Shown: positions 42,497 to 44,960 of the stretch, piece by piece
Numbering within the stretch: position 1 is the stretch's first letter
Layout: each line of letters opens with the position of its first letter
Notes under the pieces: model-generated
What the model was told of the DNA's origin: nothing
Database searches by the model: none
What the model saw: only the letters and a program-made list of their open reading frames with translations
NCBI GenBank assembly: GCA_903829815.1
Contig: CAIKRR010000061.1
Coordinates: forward strand, 1 to 64,000
Length of the DNA stretch: 64,000 nt
Reading direction: 5' to 3'
Source of the DNA: an uncultured Pseudomonadota bacterium
GTDB lineage: Bacteria > Pseudomonadota > Gammaproteobacteria > Burkholderiales > SG8-39
Translations under genes and position numbers: made by a program

Positions 42497-42610
42497 CTAG
42501 CCGCGCAGGCGACGCCATTCGGCATCGCGCTTCTTGTTGCCTTCGTAGAAGATATTGACGACCCAGAAGACGACGACCACAACCCACGCGCTCAAGAGTA
42601 CCCATTTCAT
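42497..42610 (-). CDS. 37-residue single-pass membrane peptide at the end of the puc operon
   Basis: Protein begins MKWVLLSAWVVVVVFWVVNI and ends in a basic tail (KKRDAEWRRLRG). AAGGAG lies 8 nt before the ATG, an excellent ribosome binding site, and the stop of pucC is only 37 bp upstream. One membrane helix with positive residues after it predicts N-out, C-in topology. It is unlike PucD or PucE in size. Small single-helix peptides are known to sit among light-harvesting rings (PufX, protein W), which is the analogy I would test. Too small to be found by routine gene callers. Confidence 0.7.
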   Translation of the reverse strand: MKWVLLSAWVVVVVFWVVNIFYEGNKKRDAEWRRLRG

Positions 42611-42647: not shown

Positions 42648-44066
42648 TCACGATTCGATGCTGCCCACCGGACGCAGGGCAACCTTGCCCACAAGGGCAG
42701 CCATCAAGACAACGGTCAGGGCGAGCATGATGATCTCGACCCCATAGACAAAAATATAGCCGAATGACGGGCTTTCGAGCTCGTCACCAAAGTATCCACG
42801 CACGGCAAGGCCGCCCAACGTATCGTTCAGAATGCCGCCCAGGGCAACAGCCAGACCCGATGCCGTCGCCTGCACGGCCCCCCAGGCTCCGAGCGCAAGG
42901 CCGGTCTGATCACGAGGTGCCGAATTCATCGTGGCGGTGAGCGTACCGTGGCTGAAGAGCCCCCCGCCAAAACCGATGAGCAGGACACCGAACACGAACA
43001 CCAGGGTCGACGGAATCCAAGCCGCGATGATCACCAGCGCAAACGCCGGGATACCGACACCGGCGCCGATCAGTGCCATCTTGAAGGGATCGACACCGTT
43101 ACTGAGGATGCGCGAAGCAAGCATGAACCCGGTGAGCCCTCCCAGCGCGAGGCTGGCAGTCAGCGTGGTTGTAGCCGATACCGTCATGCCCAGCACCTGA
43201 CCGCCGTAGGGTTCGAGCAGCACGTCCTGCATGCCGAAGGCCATGGTTCCAAGCCCGATGGCAACCAGTCGACGACGGGCACCCGAACTATCAAGGTAAG
43301 TCGACCAGGACTCGGCGAATGTGGCAGGCTCGGCGCGCAGATTGCGACGAACCATGTTCATCGGCTCCTGTTTCCAGAGCGCGATGGGGTTGAGCACCAT
43401 CGTGACAACGGCCGAGGCCTGAATCACCTGAATGAGTCGACCCGGACTGAAGTCGGCCAGTGCGGCGCCAAAGACGAACGCACTGATGATGCTGCCAAAA
43501 AGCAGCATCACGTACATGAGACCGACAACCTTGGGCTGAGATTCGACAGGCGCCAGATCGGTGGCGAGCGCCAGACCTGCGGTCTGGGTGGTATGCAGGC
43601 CAGCTCCAACCAGCAGAAAGGCAAGACCGGCACCGGCTGGCCCGACCCATGAAGGCCAGTTGCCAGCATTGCCTTTCAAGCCGAGGACGAGGAGCGCGAA
43701 GGGCATGATCGCCAGCCCGCCGAACTGCACGATCGTACCCATCCAGATGAAGGGAACCCGCCGCCAGCCAAACTCGGAGCGATGGTTGTCGGACCGATAT
43801 CCGACCAGCGCCCTGAAAGGTGCGTAGAGAACGGGCAACGAGATCATGATCGCGACCAGCGAGGCCGGCACATGCAGTTCGACGATCATCACCCGATTGA
43901 GCGTCCCCACCAGCAGCACCAGTGCCATGCCGACAGAGACCTGAAAGAGCGAGAGGCGAAGCAGGCGCGACAGCGGGAGGTCCGGCGTTGCAGCATCTGC
44001 AAACGGCAGAAAGCGCGGTCCCAGCTGGGCCCAGCTACGAACGAATTTCAGCGCTATCGGACGCAT
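42648..44066 (-). CDS. pucC: PucC-type LH2 assembly factor (BCD/major facilitator family)
   Basis: 472 aa with about 12 membrane helices. Family traits seen: LSLFQVSVGMALVLLVGTLNRVMIVEL near the start, YRSDNHRSEFGWRRVPFIWMGT, HTTQTAGLALATDLAP, GMQDVLLEPYGGQVLGM and FGGGLFSHGTLTA. PucC/LhaA proteins protect and assemble LH complexes and may deliver bacteriochlorophyll. The ATG at 44066 has only a weak, distant GAGG. It follows pucBA after 183 bp that contain a strong hairpin (44199-44232), as in Rhodobacter puc operons. The context with pucBA favours PucC over LhaA. Confidence 0.9.
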   Translation of the reverse strand: MRPIALKFVRSWAQLGPRFLPFADAATPDLPLSRLLRLSLFQVSVGMALVLLVGTLNRVMIVELHVPASLVAIMISLPVLYAPFRALVGYRSDNHRSEFGWRRVPFIWMGTIVQFGGLAIMPFALLVLGLKGNAGNWPSWVGPAGAGLAFLLVGAGLHTTQTAGLALATDLAPVESQPKVVGLMYVMLLFGSIISAFVFGAALADFSPGRLIQVIQASAVVTMVLNPIALWKQEPMNMVRRNLRAEPATFAESWSTYLDSSGARRRLVAIGLGTMAFGMQDVLLEPYGGQVLGMTVSATTTLTASLALGGLTGFMLASRILSNGVDPFKMALIGAGVGIPAFALVIIAAWIPSTLVFVFGVLLIGFGGGLFSHGTLTATMNSAPRDQTGLALGAWGAVQATASGLAVALGGILNDTLGGLAVRGYFGDELESPSFGYIFVYGVEIIMLALTVVLMAALVGKVALRPVGSIES

Positions 44067-44198
44067 CGTGAACGGCAGACCTCGAAATTCTTGACAGACA
44101 CGCTGGCACCCGAGGCGCCGTGCAACCGGACGATACACGCAAGGAACGCGGGCAGTGACAGAGCATCAGCCTGCGACAACGACACATGAAACCCAATA

Positions 44199-44249: not shown

Positions 44250-44462
44250 CTAGACCTGCAGCGTCGGGGGAGCGACCGAAGCAACCGTGCTCTGGGTCTG
44301 GACGACGGCCGAGGCGGCACTGCCGTTCAGGAACTTCTTGACCCAGGAGGTGTTGGTCAGCAAAGCGGTGTGGACGGCGAACGAGCCCACCGCAACCGCG
44401 CCCAACAGGAGGGGGATACCCACCGTCGGCTTCACTACAAGCCACAAGCGACCGTAGATCAT
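44250..44462 (-). CDS. pucA: LH2 light-harvesting complex alpha subunit
   Basis: 70 aa. It aligns without gaps to Rhodoblastus (Rps.) acidophilus LH2 alpha: W7, P12, G15, P17, G21, the B850 ligand His31 (SFAVHTALL), T38 and W40. Position 44-45 is Phe-Leu (KKFLNG) where B800-850 subunits have Tyr-Trp. Residues 2-3 are Ile-Tyr rather than Asn-Gln. A tail of about 23 residues rich in Ala, Val, Ser and Thr resembles the extended C-terminus of Rubrivivax. AAGGA precedes the ATG. It spans the membrane once with its C-terminus periplasmic. Start is 17 bp after the pucB stop. Confidence 0.94.
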
Positions 44463-44479: not shown

Positions 44480-44632
44480 TTAGTGAAGCCAGGGGGAGTA
44501 GATGTAGGCGAGCAGGTGCGCGAGCGCAGCGATGACGCCAAACATCTGGGTTCCCTGGATGAGATTGCGGTGGATCTCCAGAGCCTGACCTTCGGTCAGA
44601 CCTGTCGGCCACACCTCGGTTGCGTTGGACAT
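44480..44632 (-). CDS. pucB: LH2 light-harvesting complex beta subunit
   Basis: 50 aa. Aligning by the two His ligands gives LEIH (His21, equivalent to His12 of the Rps. acidophila chain), then ALAH (His39, equivalent to His30, the B850 ligand), and the C-terminal SPWLH ending exactly as in that protein. The residue equivalent to Arg20, which hydrogen-bonds B800, is Gln29 (IQGTQMF). The N-terminus VWPTGLT is of the betaproteobacterial type. AAGGAG lies 9 nt before ATG 44632; the leader carries PpsR-type operators. Confidence 0.94.
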   Translation of the reverse strand: MSNATEVWPTGLTEGQALEIHRNLIQGTQMFGVIAALAHLLAYIYSPWLH

Positions 44633-44698
44633 GTCTTTATCTCCTTCAATGATGTCCATCCCGTGCTGGACCTGCACGTGGTTGCCACTAGGGGCAAC

Positions 44699-44716
44699 TG
44701 TCATTTTCCTCTGACG
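44699..44716. promoter_or_regulatory. PpsR/CrtJ-type operator, promoter-proximal copy
   Basis: TGTC-N10-GACG, one mismatch from the TGTc-N10-gACA consensus of the PpsR/CrtJ photosynthesis repressor. It covers the position expected for the -10 element of the puc promoter (44702-44707). Confidence 0.65.
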
Positions 44717-44730
44717 ATTTAATTTGTCAA
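44702..44730 (-). promoter_or_regulatory. pucB: Candidate puc promoter
   Basis: Minus-strand TTGACA (44725-44730, perfect -35) and AAAATG (44702-44707, weak -10) are 17 bp apart. The -35 overlaps the distal PpsR-like site and the -10 overlaps the proximal one, which fits repression by occlusion. Leader to the pucB ATG would be about 60 nt. Confidence 0.5.
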
Positions 44731-44742
44731 GCCATACTGACA
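44725..44742. promoter_or_regulatory. PpsR/CrtJ-type operator, perfect consensus copy
   Basis: TGTC-AAGCCATACT-GACA matches TGTc-N10-gACA exactly. Its gap to the proximal site is 8 bp (44717-44724), the spacing of tandem CrtJ palindromes at known bch promoters. Confidence 0.75.
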
Positions 44743-44960
44743 ATTTTTCCCCTTTCGTTTCATTGCCGCGGGGAGATACTGCGCAATAAGCTTGCAAGCA
44801 ATTGAATTAATTGAACTTATTTAAAAATCCAGAAGCCGTCGACACATTTTTTTGGGGCGATCAACACGGTCGGTTTCTGAATTACCATGCCGGCTCACCG
44901 GTAAAAGTGGGCCAACCGAACCGGCTCGCCCGCTTCAGACACACTCAGGAGACCTCACGC

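Follow-up and report, generated by a model that had tools for sequence, protein, structure and literature searches.

The source LH2 is real, intact, of the blue-shifted type and ordinary for its group. Our best explanation, in which we have high confidence, is that the only LH2 operon found in the genome of this phototrophic betaproteobacterium encodes an alpha subunit without hydrogen-bond donors to the C3 acetyl groups of the bacteriochlorophylls, so giving a blue-shifted antenna with a band at about 813 nm (803-826 nm). The residues, the gene order, the single copy and the conservation in relatives on which this rests were read directly from the genomes.

The puc operon and its alpha subunit

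The features below lie in the window, the 64-kb stretch of contig that was analysed.

42497..42610, minus strand: small ORF of 37 aa, one predicted membrane helix, AAAGGAG ribosome-binding site, directly after pucC
42648..44066, minus strand: pucC, LH2 assembly protein of the major facilitator type (PF03209; ATG at 44066, upstream GTG at 44138 possible)
44250..44462, minus strand: pucA, LH2 alpha subunit of 70 aa with Val41, Phe44 and Leu45 (ORF, alignment and Pfam)
44480..44632, minus strand: pucB, LH2 beta subunit of 50 aa with His39 and Trp48 (His+9) (Pfam; ATG start checked)
44698..44717, no strand assigned: second, imperfect PpsR-like site TGT-N12-ACG, 8 bp from the palindrome
44724..44743, no strand assigned: palindrome TTGTCA-N8-TGACAA, which fits the PpsR site TGT-N12-ACA (one in the 64-kb window, 0.01 expected)

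The minus-strand ORF of pucA carries Ser27, His31, Trp40, Val41, Lys43, Phe44 and Leu45; read on the plus strand, these bases do not encode PucA. Starting at residue 2 or 3, the protein aligns without gaps to the five solved LH2 alpha chains among the alignments listed. An earlier note on this DNA had described such an alignment to Rps. acidophila LH2 alpha through His31 and Trp40, and had pointed out the Phe44-Leu45 pair. It is an LH2 alpha subunit by its match to the Pfam LHC model (PF00556, 42.4 bits, cut-off 23), its bacteriochlorophyll-ligating His and its N-terminus, which is of the nonameric type without insertion; the only NCBIfam match was to LH1 alpha and was sub-threshold (18 bits vs 35). 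A pattern search of viral contigs gave 101 matches, 0 of them relatives of PucA, and the plasmids searched for PucA gave no match.

The PDB sequences bear out the two residue pairs that the earlier note had cited: the B800-820 alpha chain of strain 7050 (1ijd) has Tyr41-Phe44-Leu45 and a B800-850 alpha chain (1kzu) has Phe41-Tyr44-Trp45. The Rps. palustris PucD chain (7ze3) has Val41-Phe44-Met45; one sentence of PMC9618040 numbers PucD residues 44 and 45 the wrong way round, while that paper's own figure legend gives Phe44-Met45, as does the PDB sequence. The note had called Phe44-Leu45 the signature of LH3, and this stands for the pair itself, which replaces Tyr44-Trp45 as in 1ijd, but not for the protein as a whole, as PucA has Val41 in place of Tyr41, the remaining acetyl donor of the 7050-type LH3, and its best PDB match is PucD-LH2 (7ze3, E 3.4e-18) rather than LH3 (1ijd, E 2.3e-12). 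Like PucD-LH2 and LH4, it has no donor-type residue at 41, 44 or 45 (Val41-Phe44-Leu45 vs Val41-Phe44-Met45), and by its residues PucA is nearest to PucD-LH2. The source protein thus lacks one feature of the 7050-type LH3, yet probably works like it.

As pucB lies just upstream of pucA and pucC downstream, with all three ordered on a single strand, they form a pucBAC operon. PF03209 matches PucC at 474.4 bits (cut-off 21), and the puc ORFs are intact and have ribosome-binding sites. Among the relatives, the beta Trp at His+9 is present in 78 of 80 loci, and the remaining two gave no match. PucB also scores above the cut-off of the NCBIfam LH1-beta model NF040862 (65.9 bits, cut-off 61), which we read as a model that fails to separate LH1 from LH2 beta; automatic annotation may therefore label pucB as pufB.

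PF00556 has four matches in the genome, which is 98.06% complete and in 98 contigs: the two LH2 subunits described above, both on C61, and an alpha/beta pair on C14 that we take to be LH1 (alpha MWRVWRLYDPLRAM...). No second pucA was found by this search of the 98.06%-complete genome, so the pucA described earlier as the only one in view is the sole copy detected. The puc and puf genes are on different contigs. Within the genus, for which three genomes are available, LH2 is present in G000 and G002. The single pair of G001 (L005, L008) is LH1-like, and this genome lacks both pucA and the small ORF; a gain or a loss of LH2 has therefore taken place inside the genus. Across the family, LHC genes of any kind are present in 4 of 98 genomes.

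Phe44-Leu45 among relatives

No other pair at 44-45 is as common as Phe44-Leu45 among the betaproteobacterial PucA sequences sampled. An order-level search of 399 genomes gave PucA matches in 31, from which 30 copies were read, including that of the source; a second copy in G389 and a weak, broken match in G465 were left out. The pair was found in 25 of these 30, the other five having YY, YH, YH, FM and FY, and was combined with Val41 in 21; Phe41 is present in four of the FL copies. Since 30 of the 31 matching genomes had a single match, it seems common for a genome to have just one puc operon and for this to lack Tyr44-Trp45, although distant second copies could escape such a search.

Two further samples agree. 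Among the best 80 of 442 named relatives, a set biased toward the query, 77 copies have Val41-Phe44-Leu45, two Leu41-Tyr-Tyr and one Val41-Tyr-Leu. PucA was also matched in 49 genomes of an 84-genome group containing a Limnohabitans-labelled genome; after three partial matches were dropped, 49 longer copies from 48 genomes comprised 46 with Val41-Phe44-Leu45, two with Val41-Tyr-Leu and one with Ile41-Tyr-Leu. A quick PucC tree, with several long branches and 86 rows that were mostly picked by likeness to the query PucA, places the Phe44-Leu45 state in each of its two large clades and shows 7 changes at 44-45. The earlier note had thought the blue-shifted antenna predicted from the pair unexpected for a betaproteobacterium, a view that these counts contradict, as do the published blue-shifted cases of Rhodoferax antarcticus (819 nm, in a passage of PMC5374385) and Limnohabitans planktonicus (799/813 nm, in a passage of PMC12654162). 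The blue-shifted-type trait is widely conserved in betaproteobacterial LH2 and is not a private adaptation of the source genome; being common to close relatives, it is ordinary for the group and not surprising.

Natural variants at 44-45 are present in L033, L035, L036, L037, L038, L162, L168 and L171 (YY, YH, YH, FM, FY, YL, YL and YL, respectively). Three metagenome-assembled genomes, L097, L100 and L120, are titled Bordetella parapertussis, Rickettsia typhi and Klebsiella pneumoniae, yet have a betaproteobacterial pucA, and these names look wrong.

Putative regulatory sites and a small ORF after pucC

The palindrome upstream of pucB fits the PpsR binding motif TGT-N12-ACA given in the part of PMC4452267 on binding sites, and a ppsR gene was detected on C14 (407 bits, cut-off 275.4). 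The same part of that paper places one TGT-N12-ACG site, at a spacing of 9 bp, in the Rubrivivax pucB promoter also, and reports no redox-dependent binding at the 8-bp-spaced sites of the Rubrivivax crtI promoter. The motif is found within 800 bases or less before pucA in 66 of 70 relative loci, compared to 111 of 826 other 800-base stretches, and a stricter form of it in 52 of 70 compared to 15 of 826. Control of puc by PpsR is likely.

Relatives were also examined for the small ORF; pucC was on the expected strand in 73 of the 80 loci, and its stop was present in 70. By a loose test, 66 loci have a small hydrophobic ORF no more than 160 bases away, with L094 and L115 looking false. A stricter test of the same loci detected it after 56 of 67 pucC genes, compared to 1 of 628 other long ORFs, and that lone control positive, L060, has the coordinates of its own pucC. 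Differences at codon positions 1, 2 and 3 numbered 149, 34 and 237 over 38 close pairs, which are not independent, and this pattern resembles that of a constrained protein. In a set of 20 further stretches, 19 had pucC; a convincing small ORF was present in 13 of them, but not in six (L178-L183, with a Phe41 or Tyr41 PucA).

A profile of 25 small-ORF rows found one copy in the source genome, one in G002 and none in G001, the source and G002 having themselves supplied rows. In the 84-genome group, 49 genomes have both pucA and the small ORF, none has pucA alone, three have the small ORF alone (one weak and broken) and 32 have neither. The 399-genome sample gave the small ORF in 18 of 31 genomes with pucA and, as a weak and broken match, in 1 of the 368 without it. 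All 18 matches are on the pucA strand, 1.5-1.75 kb past that gene. Of the 13 pucA genomes with no match to the profile, five are from genus g27, in one member of which, G098, a divergent ORF occupies this position. The Fisher values for co-occurrence (4e-20 and 5e-22) ignore kinship, and some genomes in both samples supplied profile rows, so that the association is support and not independent proof.

The mean net charge on the C-terminal side is about +3 over the 25 rows, which suggests that the C-terminus is cytoplasmic, opposite to that of LH2 alpha and beta. As a His is present in only 12 of 25 rows, there is no conserved His ligand. Database searches gave nothing convincing in Pfam (best E 0.79 for the source ORF and 0.017 for any of the 25 relatives), no NCBIfam match for the source ORF, matches to the PP0621 family for 9 of 25 relatives (best E 0.0026, no cut-offs shown) and a best E of 1 in a PDB sequence search. 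Literature searches, for which subscription papers were mostly outside reach, showed no described small puc gene among the papers listed, and a term search of PMC4949548, which concerns PucC, found neither PucD, PucE nor 'small protein'.

Two identities for the small ORF were rejected: it is not the gamma chain of Rps. palustris, which forms an extended ribbon containing EYKGHSGHPLIKQEG-like repeats, and a chance ORF does not account for the position control, the codon pattern and the co-occurrence. We give roughly even weight to the proposal that in many betaproteobacteria the LH2 operon is pucB-pucA-pucC plus a fourth gene, encoding a single-helix protein of about 27-43 residues with a positive, probably cytoplasmic C-terminus, which would be an undescribed partner of the blue-shifted antenna, either a small ring subunit or a PucC helper, much as CydX-like small proteins do service in larger membrane complexes.

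Expected colour and comparison with known antennae

At 41, 44 and 45 PucA has Val, Phe and Leu, none of which should be able to donate a hydrogen bond to the C3 acetyls of the B850-type bacteriochlorophylls. Unbonded, these groups would be expected to leave the ring plane and so raise the site energies. The band would then lie not at about 850 nm but at about 813 nm (803-826 nm), close to that of B800, and energy would still flow downhill to LH1. The bond loss, band position and energy flow are drawn from published structures and spectra. In the structural comparison within PMC9618040, which sets out a rule resting on nine LH2 structures, two C3-acetyl hydrogen bonds correspond to about 850 nm, one to about 825 nm and none to about 800 nm. 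By this rule the earlier prediction of a blue-shifted antenna is supported as far as residues 44 and 45 are concerned, although not its identity with LH3. The value of about 813 nm (803-826 nm) is expected because there is no donor at 41, 44 or 45 and because the relevant passage of the review PMC12654162 places Limnohabitans planktonicus at 799, 813 and 865 nm; that strain presumably has the residues usual in its group, and the calibration is thus by genus. None of 8 papers listed for a B800-814 antenna contained that name.

Among the points against this explanation is that Ser27 and beta Trp48 of the source LH2 could act as other donors. According to passages of PMC9618040, the hydrogen bond of Ser27 in Rba. 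sphaeroides goes to the C13 keto group, and in Phs. molischianum and Mch. purpuratum a beta Trp is the donor to the acetyl. If Trp48, Ser27 or another residue took the place of alpha Tyr41 and supplied one bond, the antenna would be a B800-820 complex equivalent to LH3 of Rbl. acidophilus 7050, absorbing at 820-826 nm. The identical Phe44-Leu45 pair and the conservation of the beta Trp favour this, as does Rba. sphaeroides, which according to the same source absorbs at 826 nm after loss of both tyrosines with Ser27 kept; however, Val41 replaces the Tyr41 that there makes the sole acetyl bond of the 7050 LH3, with its band near 820 nm, and the closest spectrally described group is at 813 nm (PMC12654162, in the passage cited). 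We consider an LH3 equivalent possible but improbable.

An antenna like PucD-LH2 or LH4, with both bands merged near 803 nm, is unlikely. It would agree with the best PDB match and with the shared Val41, Lys43 and Phe44, PucD-LH2 being described in part of PMC9618040 as having no hydrogen bond to B850 and absorbing at 803 nm, but PucA has Leu45 where PucD has Met45, and two peaks, at 799 and 813 nm, are given for Limnohabitans in the review passage. It is very improbable that the operon is silent or decaying and that no antenna is made: LH2 is dispensable in the genus, going by G001, and the puc contig is separate from the puf contig, but the ORFs are intact with ribosome-binding sites, a PpsR-like palindrome is accompanied by a ppsR gene, and PucA is 97% identical to that of L043 from the same genus. 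The blue-shifted antenna at about 813 nm is thus retained as the best explanation.

These results correct the picture of Phe44-Leu45 as a rare low-light specialty. Most of the betaproteobacterial LH2 sampled carries this pair, so antennae that absorb at shorter wavelengths may be normal for the group. The natural series at 41 (Val, Ile, Leu, Phe, Tyr) and at 44-45 (FL, YL, YY, YH, FM, FY) could be used to test the effect of each hydrogen bond on colour. The small ORF linked to pucC offers a specific candidate for a missing component of LH2 that can be put to the test, and both the wide conservation and the linked gene deserve attention.

Among the known antennae, LH3 of Rbl. acidophilus 7050 (1ijd) is like the source in Phe44-Leu45 and unlike it in its hydrogen-bonding Tyr41, where the source has Val41. 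Rps. palustris PucD-LH2 (7ze3, with a single 803-nm band) shares Val41, Lys43, Phe44 and the lack of a donor at 41, 44 and 45, but differs in Met45 and in its Rhodopseudomonas gamma ribbon, which is unlike the source small ORF. LH2 of Limnohabitans planktonicus is also betaproteobacterial and blue-shifted (799/813 nm); its puc genes are inside the photosynthesis gene cluster, according to a section of PMC12654162, whereas in the source puc and puf are on different contigs. The genus group with the Limnohabitans-labelled genome resembles the source in the Val41-Phe44-Leu45 of 46 of its 49 copies and in the small ORF that follows pucC at those loci. Rhodoferax antarcticus ANT.BR is likewise a betaproteobacterium with a sole puc operon and no Tyr44-Trp45, and passages of PMC5374385 describe its antenna as LH3 and its combination of LH1 and LH3 without LH2 as unique among purple phototrophs; it differs from the source in having Phe44-Phe45 and a puc operon embedded in the photosynthesis gene cluster.
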